A stretch of 19,840 nt of DNA. Source: Candidatus Zixiibacteriota bacterium (GTDB taxonomy: Bacteria > Zixibacteria > MSB-5A5 > SM23-73-2). Both the position numbers and the translations under genes were made by a program. Under the pieces are notes generated by a model. It did not search any database. It was not told where the DNA came from and saw only the letters and a list, made by a program, of their open reading frames with translations. Within the stretch, counting starts at the first letter, position 1; each line of letters opens with the position of its first letter. The stretch covers positions 1-19,840 of the forward strand of contig JAUWYR010000046.1 in assembly GCA_030615745.1 (NCBI GenBank), given 5' to 3'. Below, piece by piece: positions 6,742 through 19,519 of the stretch.

Positions 6742-7941
6742 ATGAAAAAATATATCTTTTTTTTCTTTGTGTTAATTTTTTTGGTTTTGATTTTCTTTGT
6801 TCTCAATAGATGGAGGCAAAAAAAACTTATAATCGATGGAGTTGATCTAACGCCCTACACAGAGGAGAAGTGGGTTAGGGAAATAAAATCTGCTTTTAAG
6901 GATGCTAAAGAGAACAAAGATGAGTTAAAAAAGATAGTCACTGAGGTTGAGCCAGAATATAGAAAACAAGCCCTTTTCCTTATAGCTTTTATGCCTTACC
7001 CGGATCTAATTCAGGTAAACTCCTCTGTAATACTCGACAATATCCGATATGCTAATTTAGCAAAAAAGACCTTTCCTTGGGCTAAGAACCTACCTGAGGA
7101 TATATTTCTAAATTATGTTTTACCCTATAGAAACTCTCAGGAGCCGATTGAGAACTTCAGACCCTACTTTTTTGAAAAGCTTTATCCAGTTGTTAAAGAT
7201 TTAAAGGATGCTTATGATGCTTCTATTGCAGTAAATCGTTGGATTGCTGAGAGGGTAAAATATAAACCTACCCAGAGGGAGGATCAGGGACCTTTTGAGA
7301 CATTAAAAGGTGGGTATGGAAGATGTGAGGAGCTGGTGATTCTTTACAACGATGCCTTAAGAAGTATCGGAATACCTTCAAGAAAAGTATGGACTCCTTT
7401 CTGGTCAATTCGGGATGATAACCACGCCTGGACCGAGCTTTATATCGAAGATCAAGAGATAGATGGAAGATGGTGGTACACTGGAGCAGCAGAGCCTAAG
7501 GATAGTTTGAACTCAGCCTGGTTCGACCAAGTGGTGAAAAAGGCATCACTGGTATTTTCAAAACCCTATGGTGAACCTGGTGCACAGGAGGTGATATATT
7601 ATAACAAAAGGGGTGAACTTTATGTAAATTCCACATCTTTCTATACTGAGACAAATGGATTTGAGATAGAGGTCGTTTCTGGTAAAAAAAGAATTAAAGA
7701 TATTTTTGTCTTTTTCTCTGTATTTAATTATGGAGCTTTAAGAAGGATTGCCTCAGTTAAGACAGGAAAAAAAGGAAAAGCAACCCTTGTAATAGGTAAA
7801 GGAACTTACTTTATTTCAACTGGAGATTCTAAAGAATATACCTGGAAAGTTGTTACAATAGGAGACGACCAAAAACAAAAGGTTTTGTTAGATTTGAAAG
7901 AAAAACCCAAAGAAAAAGAGAGTTTTTGGCTAAGGTATTAA
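6742..7941 (+). CDS. Membrane-anchored transglutaminase-like (papain-fold) protein
   Basis: The 399-aa protein has an N-terminal hydrophobic segment (residues ~4-22) ending in NRWRQKK with no clear cleavage site, so it is probably an inner-membrane anchor with the rest in the periplasm. A helical region (~30-165) precedes the transglutaminase core: TLKGGYGRCEE carries the candidate catalytic Cys (C195), SIGIPSR is the usual motif after it, and RDDNHAWTE carries the His (H228). GRWWYTGAAEP follows, a form seen in Bacteroidetes homologues (GACEP), where a clear third-residue Asp is not obvious. The last ~110 residues look like a beta-sandwich. Members may act as proteases, amidases or crosslinkers of proteins or cell-wall peptides; the substrate is unknown. 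The ribosome binding site is weak. The next gene is a paralogue 1 nt away. Confidence 0.85.
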   Translation: MKKYIFFFFVLIFLVLIFFVLNRWRQKKLIIDGVDLTPYTEEKWVREIKSAFKDAKENKDELKKIVTEVEPEYRKQALFLIAFMPYPDLIQVNSSVILDNIRYANLAKKTFPWAKNLPEDIFLNYVLPYRNSQEPIENFRPYFFEKLYPVVKDLKDAYDASIAVNRWIAERVKYKPTQREDQGPFETLKGGYGRCEELVILYNDALRSIGIPSRKVWTPFWSIRDDNHAWTELYIEDQEIDGRWWYTGAAEPKDSLNSAWFDQVVKKASLVFSKPYGEPGAQEVIYYNKRGELYVNSTSFYTETNGFEIEVVSGKKRIKDIFVFFSVFNYGALRRIASVKTGKKGKATLVIGKGTYFISTGDSKEYTWKVVTIGDDQKQKVLLDLKEKPKEKESFWLRY

Positions 7942-7942
7942 T

Positions 7943-9094
7943 ATGAGAAACTTCAAAATTATTTTGATTTTGTTTTTTTCCATATCTTTGAATGTTTTTG
8001 CCCAAAAAAACGATAGGTTCGACCCAACAAAGAATAAAAATATATTAGATTTGGTCTCTGGAAAATATAAAGAAAAGCTTGTTTCTGCTTTGGAGGATGC
8101 GGGAGCAAATTATAAAGAGCTTTGCCAGGCTATTTCTGAAGTTGAAGAGGGTAAAAGGGACGATCTGGTCTGGCTTGTCTTAAATATGCCCCATCTCGAT
8201 AGACTCACAATAACCTGTAAAATTTTAATTGAGCACCTGGAGTATTCCTATTTGGTAAAAGATAAATTTTTATATGAAGTTCCTGAGGACCTTTTTAAAG
8301 AATTTATTTTGGTTTACAGAATAGGTTCAGAGCCAGTTGAGGGTTACAGAAAAGTTTTGTTCGAAAAGTTTTATCCTTTAGTCAAAGACGAAAAAACCTC
8401 ATCTGGCGCAGCTAAGATTATAAATGAATGGATTTTTGAGAATATCTCTTTGAGAAACCAGGAGTTTTTCGGTCAGGTTTTATCTCCGCTTTTGACCCTG
8501 AAAGGAAAAAAGGGGACTGAGGAGGAGATTGCGATTTTGACAACTGCAATTTTGAAATCTATTGGAATCCCATCTCGCAGGGCAAGGGCAAGATATTTTG
8601 GAGAAAAAAAAGGTGGTTCAAGCTGGGTTGAGATATATGATTTAGGGAAATGGGTCCCTTTGTATCCTTTAGTCCCAAAAAGCTTTGGAGATTATCAAGA
8701 ATATGAGAGGGAAAAACGTTTTAACATCACAGCAGTCTATACCACCTCCGCTTTTCAAAAAAGTCTTGTCACAGAAAACTACACCCAGACCGGAAAGCTG
8801 ATACTGGTTTTGAGTTCTGGCTCTAAGCCAGCTGTGGGATTTAAACATTTTTCAATTAGCGTTTTTAATGATGGCTCTCTTTGCCCTTTAGATGAGCTCG
8901 GTTTTTTATGTAAAGATGAGGAGCTTGTCACAGATTCTACCGGATGTTTTGAGGCGGTGCTCGGAGATGGGACATACTACATTGAGACAGGAGTAAGGGA
9001 CTCTTTAGGGAATGTCTTTGTGAGAATTCAAAAAATAGAGATAAAGGCTCAAAAGACAGAAAAAGTGCAAATCGATGTCTCTTTTGAGGATTAA
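7943..9094 (+). CDS. Secreted transglutaminase-like paralogue lacking catalytic residues
   Basis: The 383-aa protein has a cleavable signal peptide (hydrophobic residues ~5-18, cut after NVFA). It aligns along its whole length with the preceding protein: SEVEEGKRD with TEVEPEYRK, VPEDLFKEFILVYRIGSEPVE with LPEDIFLNYVLPYRNSQEPIE, LFEKFYPLVKD with FFEKLYPVVKD, and TLKGKKGTEEE with TLKGGYGRCEE. SIGIPSR is kept. The catalytic Cys is replaced by Glu (E193) and the His by Ser (S226, in GGSSWVEIY), so it cannot use the papain-like mechanism. It starts 1 nt after the previous stop with AAGG at 7932-7935, so the two are clearly one operon. It is likely a binding or regulatory pseudo-enzyme. It is no decayed pseudogene, because the frame and fold motifs are intact. 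Confidence 0.82.
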   Translation: MRNFKIILILFFSISLNVFAQKNDRFDPTKNKNILDLVSGKYKEKLVSALEDAGANYKELCQAISEVEEGKRDDLVWLVLNMPHLDRLTITCKILIEHLEYSYLVKDKFLYEVPEDLFKEFILVYRIGSEPVEGYRKVLFEKFYPLVKDEKTSSGAAKIINEWIFENISLRNQEFFGQVLSPLLTLKGKKGTEEEIAILTTAILKSIGIPSRRARARYFGEKKGGSSWVEIYDLGKWVPLYPLVPKSFGDYQEYEREKRFNITAVYTTSAFQKSLVTENYTQTGKLILVLSSGSKPAVGFKHFSISVFNDGSLCPLDELGFLCKDEELVTDSTGCFEAVLGDGTYYIETGVRDSLGNVFVRIQKIEIKAQKTEKVQIDVSFED

Positions 9095-11801: not shown

Positions 11802-11830
11802 TTGACAAAAATTTTAGCTTGCTTTATATT
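11802..11830 (+). promoter_or_regulatory. Strong sigma70-like promoter for the giant surface-protein gene
   Basis: TTGACA (11802-11807), an exact 17-nt spacer and TATATT (11825-11830) make the best promoter in the window. An A/T-rich stretch just upstream could serve as an UP element. Transcription would begin near 11837, leaving a leader of about 345-410 nt before the coding region. Confidence 0.7.
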
Positions 11831-11852
11831 CAAAAACAATTTAGCTTTACTT

Positions 11853-11908
11853 GGTTAATGTTTTATATTAGATTTGTAACTTAATTTGAAATCTATGTTG
11901 GATTAACC
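11853..11908 (+). promoter_or_regulatory. Leader RNA hairpin domain 1
   Basis: A nested fold: the outer stem is GGTTAAT (11853-11859) with ATTAACC (11902-11908), both arms perfect over 7 bp. The inner stem is TAGATTT (11869-11875) with AAATCTA (11889-11895), also 7 bp, around a 13-nt loop. It begins about 16 nt after the predicted transcription start. Pairing is read by eye; function is unknown. Confidence 0.4.
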
Positions 11909-11956
11909 TCTTTTAGGGATGATAAAAAAAGGAAGGGTCTTATTTAAAAACTCCTC

Positions 11957-12051
11957 TTAAATGACATCTTAGAAAGCCAGCACCCGGGTGAAACGGAGGG
12001 GGTGATGTAGTTTGTTAGAAAGGAAACCAGAATACCTTAGAAGACATTTAA
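11957..12051 (+). promoter_or_regulatory. Leader RNA structured domain 2 (riboswitch-like candidate)
   Basis: A closing stem, TTAAATG (11957-11963) with CATTTAA (12045-12051), encloses two arms. Arm one pairs ACAT (11964-11967) with ATGT (12005-12008) and CACCC (11981-11985) with GGGTG (12000-12004), with a one-sided 13-nt bulge and a purine-rich loop. Arm two pairs AAGG (12020-12023) with CCTT (12035-12038). The G/C-rich core AGCACCCGGGTGAAACGGAG stands out from A/T-rich surroundings. I do not recognise a known riboswitch core. This could be an unknown cis-regulatory RNA or a protein-binding leader. Confidence 0.4.
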
Positions 12052-12084
12052 AAAGTATTTTATCCAAAGTTGTATTCATTTATC

Positions 12085-12095
12085 TAAGGAGGTGA
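12085..12095 (+). promoter_or_regulatory. Perfect Shine-Dalgarno sequence with no matching ORF
   Basis: TAAGGAGGTGA is fully complementary to the usual 3' end of 16S rRNA. No start codon follows at the right distance: the GTG inside it gives a 4-codon frame and TTG 12112 is 16 nt away. It may be a ribosome standby site, or may load ribosomes to protect the leader. Confidence 0.5.
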
Positions 12096-12244
12096 GAACC
12101 ATATAAAAAAATTGAAAGTTGGAAACGAAAGAAAAAAGGATAGGTTTTAACTTTTCTTAAGAAAGGAGGAAAAAAAAGAAGATGTTAAAACAAACCATAC
12201 CAAAAATAACAAAACCAAAAACCTTTAACCAAGGGGTTTGTGAT

Positions 12245-15200
12245 ATGAGAAACTTTCGTTTAATCCTGCCAGTTTTCTTGGCGGCGCTCTTTGTGTTCAC
12301 ATCACAGGCATTTGCCGCATTTCCCTCATCCTTTGATGTGATTTCGGGCACCAGGGTCGATACGGTGAGAATTGACTCAAGCGTTGTCAATGGGGATACC
12401 ACTGATGTTGATGTGCCGTGTCTTGCCATGGCTATTGTGGACTCCAATGATACTTTTGATGATACTCTGCGAAAGATCATAGTTCACAGTGACAACGATA
12501 CGGCTTACTCTGTGACGAAGCTGAAGCTATGGATAGAGAATCATGAACTAGCTGGATTTCAGAGCAGCGGTAGTGATCAAGACTCGCTTATAGCGGATAT
12601 ATCTATCACCGAGGCTTTTCAAAAAGATGATTCTCTGATAATTGACGCGATAAATCTACCTATTGCTGATAATACAGTTGATACCTTCTATTTTTCCTAT
12701 GATATTAATCCTGCTATTGATAGCACTTATAACAATAAGTATTGCGCCTTGAAGATTAATCCATTCAATATTGAGATGGACAGTGCGGGTGTTGGACCAG
12801 CTGCAGGTGACACATTGGATGTCTTCATTATCTTTGGCGCAAAACTCATCAGGATTGATGTTGAGCCTCCCCAGTTCACGCTGATGGCTTTTGATCTGGT
12901 TGAGGATACAGAATCAAATGGAATTATCGATTTGGGTGACTCGGTGCGAGTCTTTATCAAAGTATCACCAGACGTGAATGACACCATGGTTAAGTCATAT
13001 TTTGCTGCTTTTGATACCACCGACTGGGTCACCTTGGACGACAGCACTGCAGCTCCTCCTCCAAGCGATAGCTTTGTTTATCGGCATCGGATTCCTTTGG
13101 CCACAGTGGGGTTGCCTCTGGATGTTGATTCCAATTTCTACTATTTGATCTTCACTGCAGAGGACACAGTGGGCAACCAGGGCCGCGATTCTTTCTTGGT
13201 TAGCTATCCCATTGATACGAAAAAGCCTGTCTTTCCCACTGTCGATTCGGTCGAGGTGGAGCTGGTCTATGATTTGCATGGAAGTGGTGAGGGTGTGATA
13301 TCCATTGGAGATTCACTGAAGTTCACCGGCTGGATGACCAACAACCCATTTGGTGAGATCGAGACTGTATGGGTAAATCTGGACAGCCTTAATTCCGGTG
13401 TGATAGTTGGACTTGCGGATATTTCAAACAGGATATGGACCTGGACTTATGAGGTTGTGCCGGGTAATTTGGATACACTTGCGGATTCAATAGCCTGCTG
13501 GTTTGTGGCTGAGGACAATGCTGGTAACTTGGACTCAGCAAGAAGTCCCATACCTTATCCAATAGATATCGTCGCCCCGAGTATCTTAGTTTCTGATATA
13601 ATCTATGCCGGATGGGTTGATATCGACGCCAATAATGTGATGAATCTCGGCGATTCGGTGATAATCAGGGTGGATGCATCCGGGGTTCCAGATTTGGATA
13701 CTACTTGTGGGGTTATGGTGAACCTGCTCCATGCGGGACTTGGCGGACCCTATAACTATTGTATGGAGGATAGTGCGGGAACTGGGATTTACAGACTCCT
13801 CTGGGAATTGAAACCAGACCCACAGGATTCTGCCATCGATGTGCTGGCCAACGTTGCCGATGTGGATATCGCTTTGAAGGACGATGCTGGTAACGACACC
13901 ACCATCACCTCCAATCCTATAGATAAACCTGTGGATACCACCATACCGGCTGCGGTGAAAGACTTGTTAGCAACTCCCAAGAAGGATTGCGTGATCGAGC
14001 TTTCCTGGGGAGAGCAGGCATATGACGCTTACATGTTTGCTGTGTTCTGGGATTCAGGTTATGGTGGAGAAATCTTCTGGGATGACACTTTGGGTACTAG
14101 CTTCGACACTTCAAGCCACAAATGGAGTACTGTTGGGGATAATGGTATTACATATAGGTTTGCAGTCCAGACCTTAGATGATGCCAATAATTCTGAGAGC
14201 CCTACTGATACTGTTGTTGTGTCAGCTCGTGCAGATTGTGAACCACCGATTGTATGTATTACCTCACCTGAATCAGGCTTAACCTTTGGTCCATTGAACC
14301 CACTATTTCTGATTGGAGAAAGCAATGCTCCCGATGTGAAGGACGTGAAAGTTCTTTACCGATTTAAGGATACAGATGGGATGGGCACCCCGGGTCCCTG
14401 GCACTATTACGATTATATGTATAGCAGCGGTGGAATTATTTACAAAGATACCATACCAAATCTACCTCCAGCGCCAGGGGACACTCTTAAAGGAGAAGGT
14501 ACCTACGAGTTGATCGCTTATGCCTATGACTCCTTGGGGAATGTCCTGGATACCTTAGCAGCTTACGATTCCTGCCATTTTGAGTTCAACTGGTTCTTCC
14601 ACCCGGTGCCGATATTCATGGTGAGTGTTAATGATACTGTATCCCCTCAGTCTGGCTGTGGTTACAATGTTTCCGGGGATAGTAATAAGATTGTGGTTGA
14701 TGTTACAGGTGCTACCCCAGCTGACTCATTTACTTTGGATGTGTATGTGATAATAGTTCCACCGGATAGCACTGCCAGAGTCTATTATGTTGAGAATATC
14801 ACTATGCCCCACACCTTCTATTTAGATGTCACTTACTGGGAACCGGGAACACAGAAGATGTTTGTGAAGTCGATAAATGAGGCACATAACATTGGAGTTG
14901 ACACTGTTGATCTCTGCGTGCCTGAGTGGCAGGTGCCAGTAGCAGAGATCACCTCTCCTAAGGATGGTCAGAGGGTGCATCGAGCTTTGACATCCATGAA
15001 TCCGGTTTTAATTAGAGCTGAGTTGAGCCCTAACTCACCATTTGGTGTCTCGGAAATAGATAAAGTTGAGTTTGAATATTCTCTTAATGCGACCGACTGG
15101 ATTCTGATCGAGACAAAATTAGATACCAGCTCGTCCTATTGGCAGGCTGAGTGGGATAACTCAGACACAACTATCTTCACTGATGGATTGAAAGTCTATC

Positions 15201-18200
15201 TGAGAGCTAAGTTCTATATTCCGGATGGCTCATTCGGTGTTACTTCAATGGTTTATGTCTTTATAGATGCATCTGTCCCGGTTATAGATTTGAAGGTCCA
15301 GCCGATTGTAACTATAAATGGAGTGGACAAGATCTCAGGCCCGGTTGACCTGTTTGCTTATGTGAAGCAATCAACCATAGACATAAAGTATGTTAGCTTC
15401 TACTGGAAGTATAGTACTGATCCGGATATATTCTTCAAATACAACTTTATAGATAAAGTAACTCCGGTTAATCCGGGTGATCCGGACAGCGCCACCGTCT
15501 TTGCCTATCGAGGCTTTACCAGCGGTTCGGATCAGTATTCCATTGACATAAGAGCGATTTCTGAGGATCAGGCTGGAAATGTTCTGTTCGACTATGATGG
15601 TGATATGCTCTTCGACGATGGCTGGTTCAGCCTGGCTAATCCTTCTGATACCACCGTATTCAGAGATGAGCAGGCTCCGGATCCAGCTATTGATACGGTA
15701 AAAAGCATTGCCTCCGATGGATCGGATACTATAACCTTTGTCAATCCGTCAGCAAAGTTAGGTGGTAATGCTACAGTCTTCCTCCAGGCTGGTCGTTGGG
15801 TCTCTATTACCTCTCATATTCTGCCGGCTGGTGATTCAGTTGATGTTGATAAGATCGAGTACTATTTAAACCCCAATGGTTATTATTTAGGCACACGGTA
15901 TAATCCTCCGTACAAAGTCACCTTCAATCCAGCGGATTTGGGAATTTATCCGCTTGATGGTTATGAATCGCACAAGCTAACGGCAACTCTCTATGATAAA
16001 TTGGGCAATTCCACAACACAAGACACAATCAGACTGTATTTCCTTGATGTAACTGGAAATCAGGTGGTGATCACCTCTCCTACGAATAACTCCTATAGAA
16101 GTCGCGATATCACCTTACAAGGTGCAGCCTTAGATGGATATAGCTCAGATATTCAGTCAGTTACTTATCAATATGGAGTGGTTGGTTCAGATACTACCTG
16201 GTATGATATCGGAACTACGGCCGGGTCTCAACCTTGGACATATTACTGGCACACTTATAACAACATAGATGATGGCTGGTATCCTCTGAGAGCTGTGTCT
16301 GAAGATAACGCAGGCAATCCTGCTATTGGTCCGGTGATCAGGGTGAACGTTACCAATCATGATCCAATTGCCTATATGATTATGCCAGATGACTCGACAA
16401 TCATCGGAGGAAATCTGAATATCAAGCCGTGGTGGTACTCCTATGGTGATTCCTTTGATGTGAAGTTGAGGGCTGTTGCCAAGAAATACTCGCCCAGTTC
16501 AGCTGGTATCGATTACGTAGACTTCAGATACAAATTGCAGACCAGTGGTACCTGGACCACCGTGCCTTACGGACCTGACACCTTAACTCTTTATCAGGAT
16601 TCGATCTATGCTAATGTTCTGGGAGTGGAAGGAAAGACCAGCGGCTGGTATCATTTTGGAGCTCAAGCCTATGACTCTGCTTCGAATATGGCTTGGACCG
16701 ATACCCTGGATATTTTCATAGATAATGAAGATCCTCAAGGCAAGCTGATGTACGTCAATGGTGACTACAACAGCTGGTATAAGGATATCACCGAGCCCGA
16801 TACTGCACTGCTGGTAGCCCGAGCCTGGGATATGCCGTCTGATTACAATGCTGGACTGGATACTGTTCAATTTATAATTACCGATTTCGACTCCGATAAC
16901 ATGTCACCTGGTAAAGTCTGGTTTACGGGTACGGCTTTGCCCGGCGATACTACTGGACAATACTATATAACCTGGAATCATGCTGGAGTTCCTCCGGGAA
17001 CCTATTGGGTCTATCTGAAATTAGTGGATGGAGTCAACAACAAGTCCATAACTCAGGGTTGGCCGGTGGAGATTCGGGATATAACGGTTCCGGTGGGCGT
17101 GGTGAGAGCCTTCCATCCGAGCTATATCTATGCTTCCACTGAGAATCCGGTCGACTATCTGCAGTTTGAGTATAAGCCAGCAGGTGGTGCTCTGGGCGGC
17201 TCCGATTGGATCAAGCTAAGCCTGGCTGATACGGTGAGTGGTTTTGTTGACCTGTGGTCTGCTCCATGGGATCCGATGTCCTTAGCTGGTGTAGATGATA
17301 TGGATTACCTGGTCAGAGCTGTGCCGGTAAGAGAGGAATGGCCAGAAATCGAGAAGGGTGTTGCTAAGTATGTGGTTTTGGATAACTTCATTGCTCCGGA
17401 GGCTCTGATTACGGTTACTCCTGAAGGAGAGGTTATCACCCAAGGGACGGAGAATATCGGTCCGATGAGCTTTACCGCAAATCTTGCTTACAACAGCAAG
17501 GGAACCATAAGCTTGACCCAGACCTCAGAGAAGCCATATCTGTTAGCAATTTATACTGACCTGGATACTGTGGTTCGGTATGTTACTCCTCTGACTTTGG
17601 ATAAGGTTATCGGAGACGATACCTATAATGGCTTCTTCGATGCTAAGTGGATTTGTACTACAGCCGGAACAGCTGATTTCTTTGCTTCTGTTTATGATGG
17701 TGGAGTCTTTATAGAAAAAGGTGGATTTGTTATCCATAAGGTGTTCAAGGCATTCGGAACCAATGGCTGGGTGTTGTCCCATGATGGGACCGCCAGGATC
17801 AAGATGCCTGAGGGAGTTATTGATGATACCTTAGCTAATCTTTTGATCTTCCCAGCTCAGAAGCCGGATGTAACCTCGATTCCTCATATGGACTATCTGC
17901 CGGTCGGAAATGAGAACGGTATGCTGCAGCAGTTTTATCTGTTCTTACCCGATACATTATGTCCTTTTGGCGAACCTTGCTCAGGTGGAGAACAACTTTA
18001 TCATTCACCAACAGTCTATTCCACCATAGTCTTGAGCTACGATACTAATGAGGTGCAGATAGATGAGTCCGAACTGCAGGTTGGCAGATGGAATGAAGAC
18101 ACTCTTAGATGGGAGTTTACCGGCATCAGGGACCTGGTGGTTGATACTGTTAATAACACTGCTACCTTCAAGACCAACGAGATGGGTCTTTATGCGGTTG

Positions 18201-19519
18201 TGCAGAACGTATCTGGCATATCCATCATGGCAATGGTTGAGGTTGAGCCCAACTGCTCAGATTATACCTACAAGTATCCGTTGTTCAAGGCAACCATAAA
18301 GGATAACTACAGCGGAGTATATGAAAACAGCATCGTGATGAGGGTTGGTCCTTTGGGCGGATATATGATGGAGATCTACGACGGAGGAAGCCTTGCCGAT
18401 GGATTCTGTTATCGTGATACCTCCGGCGGTGAATACTACGGTTATGATCCTGTGTCAGGCATACTCAAGGTAGAGAACTGTGGACAGCCGTTCGATGCTG
18501 GCACTTATGTGGTTACAGTGAGCGCCAGAAATAATTATGGAATTAAAGCTACTGCGGGAGATACCTTTATTGTTGAGACTGCTCCTCCGGAGATCTACAT
18601 TCCTAAGCACTACGTTTCCAAGAATCCGGAGTTCTGGTTCACGGTTAAGGACCTTGAGTCCGGAGTGGACAAGAATTCCATCTTCATAGACTTCGCCGGA
18701 GCTACCTATGACTATTCAGATGTATTCGAGCGGAAGATCTACTTCACCATGACTCCGAGCCAGATCGATATCGTCAATGATACCGTATATATCGACCCGC
18801 TGTTCGAGCTAAAAGACGATGACTACCTACATGTGGTTATCTACAATGGTATTTACAGAAGAGAATATCAGGAGAATGAAAATTACGTCAGGATTTATGC
18901 GGACTCGAATGGCCATTCACACGGTATTTACGACTGCGTAGGCAACCAGGCCACTGTTATTCATCAGTGGTTCCCGGTTGACGGCAGTCCTCCTGTTATC
19001 ACTCTGTTGAGCGAGCTCTCCGACCGTCCGCTTGAGTTCCGGATAACCGATGCTCGTTCTGGAATTAAGACCGTAGTGGCTGATCCAGCTGGCACTTCCT
19101 CCTGGGATTCCTTGACTGGCAAGTTCCTCTACACTCCTTCGGATGGCGACAGAATGATAACCATAACTGCTACCGATACAGTTGGCAATGTTACTGTCTA
19201 TCCCTTCACTACTGAGGCAGAAGTGCTTGCGATTACGGATGTTTACAACTATCCCAACCCATTCGATCCGACAGGTGATGGCTACACAACCATAGAACTC
19301 GGACTGACTAAAGGTGCTAATGTGACTGTTAAGATATATGACTTTGCTGGAGACTATGTAACTACTCTCTCTCCTGTTAATGGTGAATATCGGTGGAAAG
19401 GAACTACTGAGGATGGTGAAATGGTTGCCAATGGAGTCTATCTCTGTTACATCAAAGCGAAAGACGGTTCCAATACAGTGACTGAAGTAATCAAGATAGC
19501 GGTGGTTAAGAAGGACTAA
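12245..19519 (+). CDS. Giant secreted multi-repeat surface protein with C-terminal FlgD/T9SS-like domain
   Basis: The start is ATG 12245 (AAGGGG at 12231-12236, 8 nt before), which places a standard signal peptide first (cut after QAFA). An in-frame ATG at 12182, with AAAGGAGG 12 nt before, would add 21 residues. From 12245 the protein is 2424 aa. An N-terminal beta-rich region (~25-203) is followed by three tandem units (204-322, 323-439, 440-562), each with a GDSV/GDSL motif and ending near GN...PID/PVD. A fibronectin-III-like module (~563-667) comes next, then Ig-like modules opening with ITSP (near 672, 902 and 1276), more Ig-like domains, and a region with VGRWNEDTLRWEF resembling domains found after ZU5-like folds. 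The C-terminus (2330-2424) has YPNPFDP, VKIYDFAG and GVYLCYIKA: the FlgD-Ig/type-A sorting-domain pattern. It is probably exported to the cell surface. A porV-like gene follows. Confidence 0.9.
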   Translation: MRNFRLILPVFLAALFVFTSQAFAAFPSSFDVISGTRVDTVRIDSSVVNGDTTDVDVPCLAMAIVDSNDTFDDTLRKIIVHSDNDTAYSVTKLKLWIENHELAGFQSSGSDQDSLIADISITEAFQKDDSLIIDAINLPIADNTVDTFYFSYDINPAIDSTYNNKYCALKINPFNIEMDSAGVGPAAGDTLDVFIIFGAKLIRIDVEPPQFTLMAFDLVEDTESNGIIDLGDSVRVFIKVSPDVNDTMVKSYFAAFDTTDWVTLDDSTAAPPPSDSFVYRHRIPLATVGLPLDVDSNFYYLIFTAEDTVGNQGRDSFLVSYPIDTKKPVFPTVDSVEVELVYDLHGSGEGVISIGDSLKFTGWMTNNPFGEIETVWVNLDSLNSGVIVGLADISNRIWTWTYEVVPGNLDTLADSIACWFVAEDNAGNLDSARSPIPYPIDIVAPSILVSDIIYAGWVDIDANNVMNLGDSVIIRVDASGVPDLDTTCGVMVNLLHAGLGGPYNYCMEDSAGTGIYRLLWELKPDPQDSAIDVLANVADVDIALKDDAGNDTTITSNPIDKPVDTTIPAAVKDLLATPKKDCVIELSWGEQAYDAYMFAVFWDSGYGGEIFWDDTLGTSFDTSSHKWSTVGDNGITYRFAVQTLDDANNSESPTDTVVVSARADCEPPIVCITSPESGLTFGPLNPLFLIGESNAPDVKDVKVLYRFKDTDGMGTPGPWHYYDYMYSSGGIIYKDTIPNLPPAPGDTLKGEGTYELIAYAYDSLGNVLDTLAAYDSCHFEFNWFFHPVPIFMVSVNDTVSPQSGCGYNVSGDSNKIVVDVTGATPADSFTLDVYVIIVPPDSTARVYYVENITMPHTFYLDVTYWEPGTQKMFVKSINEAHNIGVDTVDLCVPEWQVPVAEITSPKDGQRVHRALTSMNPVLIRAELSPNSPFGVSEIDKVEFEYSLNATDWILIETKLDTSSSYWQAEWDNSDTTIFTDGLKVYLRAKFYIPDGSFGVTSMVYVFIDASVPVIDLKVQPIVTINGVDKISGPVDLFAYVKQSTIDIKYVSFYWKYSTDPDIFFKYNFIDKVTPVNPGDPDSATVFAYRGFTSGSDQYSIDIRAISEDQAGNVLFDYDGDMLFDDGWFSLANPSDTTVFRDEQAPDPAIDTVKSIASDGSDTITFVNPSAKLGGNATVFLQAGRWVSITSHILPAGDSVDVDKIEYYLNPNGYYLGTRYNPPYKVTFNPADLGIYPLDGYESHKLTATLYDKLGNSTTQDTIRLYFLDVTGNQVVITSPTNNSYRSRDITLQGAALDGYSSDIQSVTYQYGVVGSDTTWYDIGTTAGSQPWTYYWHTYNNIDDGWYPLRAVSEDNAGNPAIGPVIRVNVTNHDPIAYMIMPDDSTIIGGNLNIKPWWYSYGDSFDVKLRAVAKKYSPSSAGIDYVDFRYKLQTSGTWTTVPYGPDTLTLYQDSIYANVLGVEGKTSGWYHFGAQAYDSASNMAWTDTLDIFIDNEDPQGKLMYVNGDYNSWYKDITEPDTALLVARAWDMPSDYNAGLDTVQFIITDFDSDNMSPGKVWFTGTALPGDTTGQYYITWNHAGVPPGTYWVYLKLVDGVNNKSITQGWPVEIRDITVPVGVVRAFHPSYIYASTENPVDYLQFEYKPAGGALGGSDWIKLSLADTVSGFVDLWSAPWDPMSLAGVDDMDYLVRAVPVREEWPEIEKGVAKYVVLDNFIAPEALITVTPEGEVITQGTENIGPMSFTANLAYNSKGTISLTQTSEKPYLLAIYTDLDTVVRYVTPLTLDKVIGDDTYNGFFDAKWICTTAGTADFFASVYDGGVFIEKGGFVIHKVFKAFGTNGWVLSHDGTARIKMPEGVIDDTLANLLIFPAQKPDVTSIPHMDYLPVGNENGMLQQFYLFLPDTLCPFGEPCSGGEQLYHSPTVYSTIVLSYDTNEVQIDESELQVGRWNEDTLRWEFTGIRDLVVDTVNNTATFKTNEMGLYAVVQNVSGISIMAMVEVEPNCSDYTYKYPLFKATIKDNYSGVYENSIVMRVGPLGGYMMEIYDGGSLADGFCYRDTSGGEYYGYDPVSGILKVENCGQPFDAGTYVVTVSARNNYGIKATAGDTFIVETAPPEIYIPKHYVSKNPEFWFTVKDLESGVDKNSIFIDFAGATYDYSDVFERKIYFTMTPSQIDIVNDTVYIDPLFELKDDDYLHVVIYNGIYRREYQENENYVRIYADSNGHSHGIYDCVGNQATVIHQWFPVDGSPPVITLLSELSDRPLEFRITDARSGIKTVVADPAGTSSWDSLTGKFLYTPSDGDRMITITATDTVGNVTVYPFTTEAEVLAITDVYNYPNPFDPTGDGYTTIELGLTKGANVTVKIYDFAGDYVTTLSPVNGEYRWKGTTEDGEMVANGVYLCYIKAKDGSNTVTEVIKIAVVKKD

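Follow-up and report, generated by a model that had tools for sequence, protein, structure and literature searches.

The conserved feature of the leader in front of the giant exported-protein gene of this Zixibacteria contig is a series of four motifs complementary to the 3' end of 16S rRNA, designated SD1, SD2, SD3 and SD4 (Table 1). The last two of these precede two in-frame ATG codons of the same gene, giving it a double start. We favour a reading in which the leader loads ribosomes, by standby binding or by coupled translation, and feeds a dual-start gene with an extended signal peptide; we hold this reading tentatively, at a little short of an even balance. The leader is a variant of kinds already known, the standby or start-less SD and the dual-start signal peptide. 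Throughout, 'the window' refers to the whole 19,840-nt stretch of DNA analysed.

Table 1. Positions of the promoter, leader motifs and reading frames in the window
Feature	Position	Strand	Remarks
Sigma-70-type promoter, TTGACA-17-TATATT	11802-11830	+	11/12 matches; identical in G001
5' leader	11837-12181	+	Extent as given by the sequence-only reading; present once in the genome; conserved in the same-genus species
CTCCTC, anti-SD-like pyrimidine block	11951-11956	+	Within an 18-nt stretch (11940-11957) identical in both genus members
SD1, GGAGGGGGTG / AAACGGAGGGGGTG	11991-12004	+	Counterpart AAAGGGGTGATG at the SD1 place in three f3 genomes
Candidate uORF, TTG start, 27 codons, ending ...KSILSKVVFIYLRR*	12012-12095	+	8-9 nt after SD1; stop inside SD2
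36-nt block holding SD2	12066-12101	+	100% identical in both genus members (genus-pair alignment)
SD2, AAGGAGGTGAG	12086-12096	+	Perfectly complementary to the 16S 3' end; duplex -16.1 kcal/mol
SD3, AAAGGAGG	12162-12169	+	ATG follows at 12 nt
ATG and 21-codon in-frame N-terminal extension, MLKQTIPKITKPKTFNQGVCD	12182-12244	+	12 nt after SD3
SD4, AAGGGG	12231-12236	+	8 nt before ATG 12245
Giant exported protein from the signal peptide on, 2424 aa	12245-19519	+	Signal peptide by inspection

The window belongs to a 2.28-Mb Zixibacteria genome in 74 contigs that is 98.6% complete. Its same-genus relative is SM23_73_2 (G001), and the order also includes SM23_73_3 and bin1014. The product of the giant gene (12182-19519) is an exported protein of 2445 aa that carries a Big_7 domain and has a FlgD_ig/Por_Secre_tail-like C terminus. 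The promoter, which the sequence-only reading had called strong, is the best in its region and lies ~345 nt from the ATG at 12182, the leader length given by that reading, and ~408 nt from the in-frame signal-peptide ATG at 12245. Elsewhere in the window, a transposase integrase core domain (rve_3) occupies the left contig end (1-588), and the segment at 6742-9094 encodes two transglutaminase-core proteins side by side, then a Na+/H+ exchanger and a TrkA/ion-channel protein.

Among 59 relatives, a full-length alignment of the leader was obtained only with G001. This alignment begins at the promoter, and the promoter and leader together are 79% identical at the DNA level, compared with 53% identity for the giant protein; the intergenic DNA 5' of the promoter does not align. 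The leader is therefore under constraint. Three species of the sister family f3 (G003, G010 and G007) carry a homologue of the giant gene; its promoter is related, with TTGACA kept at the corresponding place, and its leader is ~500 nt long. The leader occurs once per genome, each time ahead of this giant exported protein; we found no copies before other genes and no match in a search of a viral collection. A long and conserved leader that matches no Rfam family and is tied to one giant exported-protein gene is likely to be a cis-acting element. To this extent the earlier proposal of a new cis-regulatory RNA stands, but a structured, aptamer-like character is not supported, as described below.

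Six blocks of at least 11 nt are identical between the window and G001: 11883-11900, 11940-11957, 11991-12001 (AAACGGAGGGG), 12066-12101, 12159-12169 (AAGAAAGGAGG) and 12175-12188. Three of the six complement the 16S 3' end, and the longest identical stretches include SD1, SD2 and SD3. The best conserved block, which holds SD2, falls outside both folded domains proposed for the leader. The CTCCTC block, invariant in the genus pair, could pair with SD1 or SD2.

SD2 shows no variation across five species from two families, forming 11 invariant columns in a leader alignment with a mean column identity of 58%, and no canonical start codon (ATG) lies at working distance from it in any of the five. 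The site is weakly structured and conserved in relatives, as expected of a standby leader. The AAGGAGG before the gene is likewise invariant in f3. The number of SD-like sites in the window leader is not above that of shuffled sequences (4 versus 2.8 +/- 1.4; 17 of 60 shuffles have as many), so motif count alone was dropped as evidence and the case for the series rests on conservation and position. In the window's own genome, AAGGAGGTGAG occurs 15 times, compared with once for a reversed control. Five of the 15 copies are followed at 7-10 nt by an ATG or GTG, and several of the remainder lie within or beside other ORFs. At two loci of this genome (L105 and L110) the order promoter, leader, start-less AAGGAGGTGAG, true SD and exported-protein gene is repeated.

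By inspection, a textbook signal peptide begins at ATG 12245 and not at ATG 12182. The arrangement of SD3, 11-14 nt, ATG, 19-33 in-frame codons, SD4 and a second ATG was found in all 18 genomes measured, from seven families, with the extended-start ATG picked among in-frame ATGs. It is kept although the sequences differ among the 18 genomes, so that a pair of in-frame SD-start units ahead of a single signal peptide, as expected of a dual start, is conserved throughout. In a sample of the window's own genome, 34 of 37 genes have a GGAGG-to-start distance of 3-9 nt. The 19-33-aa extensions (window 12182-12245, L087-L102) end in GGCRMK, GVCKMK or GGARMK, the translation product of the second SD. 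Several f4 genomes (L092, L096-L099 and L101) have an extra upstream SD-ATG in the open frame of the giant protein, e.g. GGGGGGGTCATG near -195, for up to three nested in-frame starts. The annotated start of Zixibacteria giant exported proteins is ambiguous.

An alternative reading, which we consider unlikely, is control by a leader peptide, in which translation of or stalling on an ORF driven by SD1 alters access to SD2-SD4 in a uORF-coupled or attenuation-like manner. The candidate uORF of the window ends in SD2, and in G001 an ORF of 31 codons that shares its C terminus begins at the ATG of SD1; the SD1 ORFs of G003 and G010 stop just after SD2. In family f7 (L093, L094 and L028) a conserved short uORF, MEDL..CG.DWKGGY, overlaps and ends at SD3, in a coupled layout with the extended start (TAATG in L093). 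However, the uORF is absent from G007, one of the five species, its phase with respect to SD2 varies from family to family, and ORFs this short are frequent in random AT-rich DNA. Substitutions in the uORF show no third-position bias, so it remains a candidate coding sequence.

Two further readings invoke a factor bound at the SD motifs, and both appear improbable. In the first, CsrA or another GGA-binding regulator would cover the SD-like GGA motifs and repress translation of the surface protein. As in CsrA-regulated leaders, GGA motifs overlap the SDs (A-N-GGA occurs within SD2 and SD3) and csrA is present in the window's own genome. In f3, a hairpin with a stem invariant in the three species exposes GGAGGGG in its loop, a GGA-bearing loop seen only in that family. 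Of the 132 genomes of the class, 124 have csrA, and its presence therefore says little. A-N-GGA is not enriched against shuffles in f3 (4, 7 and 5 versus 6.3, 6.6 and 5.0) and only weakly enriched in f1 (7 versus 4.1 and 6 versus 3.1), an enrichment no greater than the SDs themselves give. With no clear enrichment, CsrA was set aside as the reason for the GGA motifs, and control of the leader by CsrA keeps a low probability.

The second, of similarly low probability, is that a 30S subunit parked on SD2 shields the long transcript from decay, in the manner of the STAB-SD of Bacillus thuringiensis cry3A (PMC4113751). Both are strong, non-initiating SDs able to pair with 16S rRNA: SD2 lies in the 5' UTR with no start codon at working distance, toward the 5' end of a very long transcript made from a strong promoter. 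RNase E/G, a 5'-end-sensitive nuclease, is present in the genome (C59). The likeness is one of motif type, and the window leader differs from cry3A in having several SDs and a mid-leader site, SD2 being ~250 nt downstream of the 5' end. The nuclease that is blocked in Bacillus, RNase J, gave no match (TIGR00649) in the 98.6%-complete genome, and a control matched in 13 of 14 genomes. Stabilization by way of RNase J was set aside on this ground.

The least probable reading is that of the original proposal, a structured ligand-binding RNA of the riboswitch type, to which we give very little weight. The strong conservation of the leader would be compatible with such an RNA, but the window leader folds worse than its shuffles: the minimum free energy of 11837-12181 is -54.9, compared with -64.7 +/- 5.2 (z +1.88), which provides no thermodynamic signal for a structured leader. 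Neither of the two folded domains that had been proposed is exceptional, the 11957-12051 fold being average (z +0.16) and that of 11853-11908 mildly better than chance (z -1.94; 11 of 200 shuffles equally good). In G001, the outer stem of the first domain keeps six of seven pairs, with one broken and two now G-U, and pairs of its inner stem are also lost (by eye on the alignment); the closing stem of the second domain keeps six of seven pairs, with one broken. No compensatory changes were found in the named stems between the window and G001, a comparison of two sequences that has little power for covariation. The G/C-rich core assigned to the second domain is SD1, a Shine-Dalgarno-like motif (AAACGGAGGGG(G)). 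The suggestion that this core fits no recognised riboswitch class is borne out by an Rfam scan of the leader, in which no family reached the gathering threshold and only chance hits appeared up to E=10.

The f3 leaders present a different picture in their 5' part, which contains three conserved hairpins (L036 568-690, L037 548-675 and L038 512-640), the third carrying the exposed GGAGGGG loop. It is more stable than expected by chance in G003 and G007 (z -3.23 and -2.76, respectively) and mildly so in G010 (z -1.87), and one pair is changed on both sides in the three-sequence alignment. A covariance model of this f3 domain (R1) gave high scores only for the three f3 leaders and did not find the window leader or the fold in f1, indicating that the fold is not shared; the SD2 and SD3 motifs are shared. 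Weak matches of the model elsewhere (E 7e-4 to 0.1) were taken as noise. Between SD2 and SD3, f3 has a 9-bp hairpin with one two-sided change in G007 (manual alignment), and a hairpin at this place is seen also at locus L110 of the window's own genome. The corresponding window hairpin is no better than shuffles (z -0.19), that of the sister is worse (z +1.37), and it was rejected. Also rejected was a helix of ACATC (11964-11968) with GATGT (12003-12007), which in one register looks compensatory, reading ACACC/GGTGT in the sister, but is broken by the MAFFT alignment. Rfam gave no match, stability did not exceed that of shuffles, the named stems showed no covariation and the leader was found before no other gene; on the evidence, it is not a riboswitch.

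Upstream SD-like sites before other exported-protein genes were surveyed in a ~385-kb sample of the window's own genome, counting strong sites that lie over 30 nt 5' of the start. At -11 kcal/mol, such sites precede 17 of 37 signal-peptide genes and 22 of 125 others (Fisher p 0.0008); at -14.5 kcal/mol the counts are 6 of 37 and 3 of 125 (Fisher p 0.005), with crude ORF calling and signal-peptide detection and thresholds chosen post hoc. Sense and antisense counts are 22 and 8 for signal-peptide genes and 32 and 29 for the others, the asymmetry being limited to the former. The upstream regions of signal-peptide genes are longer (median 371 versus 228 nt), and some of the sites are those of small unannotated ORFs or of tRNA genes nearby, so the enrichment is suggestive only. 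Upstream of a second giant gene of the genome (L121 10059-16643; 2195 aa, beta-helix/dockerin) there are also several SD-like motifs, among them AGGGGGTGAAATATG at -197 and GAAAGGAGG at -88.

The cell-wall-protein operon of Bacillus brevis 47 has a long leader, and its tandem in-frame SD-start units, two in number, place additional residues N-terminal to the signal peptide. The window locus resembles it in all of these respects and in serving a surface-protein gene; the organism and protein are unrelated, and here the first start has an unusually long SD spacing of 11-14 nt. Autotransporters and two-partner secreted proteins (PMC2805444) likewise include giant exported proteins in which an ordinary signal peptide is preceded by an N-terminal extension. 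The protein families here are different and the window extension is not alike in sequence, and the C terminus of the giant protein indicates that the secretion route probably differs as well. The upstream SDs also have a parallel in the standby sites of long 5' UTRs, where a start is fed by 30S-accessible, single-stranded sites ahead of it and distant ones can support high translation (PMC3936740). In contrast to those sites, the motifs described here form a row of several near-perfect SDs that is conserved in a lineage and linked to a single gene.

The arrangement of the motifs suggests how a ribosome-loading leader might work, in keeping with the high translation that distant standby sites can support. 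Transcription would start near 11837 and produce an AU-rich, weakly folded leader with tandem 16S-complementary sites. SD1 probably drives the short leader ORF, whose translation would terminate inside SD2. SD2, with no usable ATG, is predicted to hold or recruit a 30S subunit upstream of the gene, by standby or re-loading. SD3 would serve the start at 12182, a weak one given its 12-nt spacing, with a signal peptide 21 aa longer, and SD4 would serve the in-frame start at 12245 at normal spacing. We infer that both starts are used and that the leader affects expression, the expected outcome being high and steady initiation on a very long exported-protein mRNA, possibly its protection, and a minority product with the extended signal peptide.

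A broader proposal, which we regard as doubtful, is that Zixibacteria have a recurrent class of exported-protein leaders made up of a start-less perfect SD, a spacer and a true SD, joined at giant genes by a second in-frame start with the 11-14-nt SD spacing. Such a leader could be a dedicated device for ribosome queuing or re-loading, by which the ratio of long to short signal peptide is set.

In place of a riboswitch candidate, now removed, the leader offers an idea about translation in an uncultured phylum. If it is true, start-less SDs and a conserved double start would be part of making giant exported proteins. The class-wide double-start layout also suggests that the annotated starts and signal peptides of these giant proteins may be wrong or dual.
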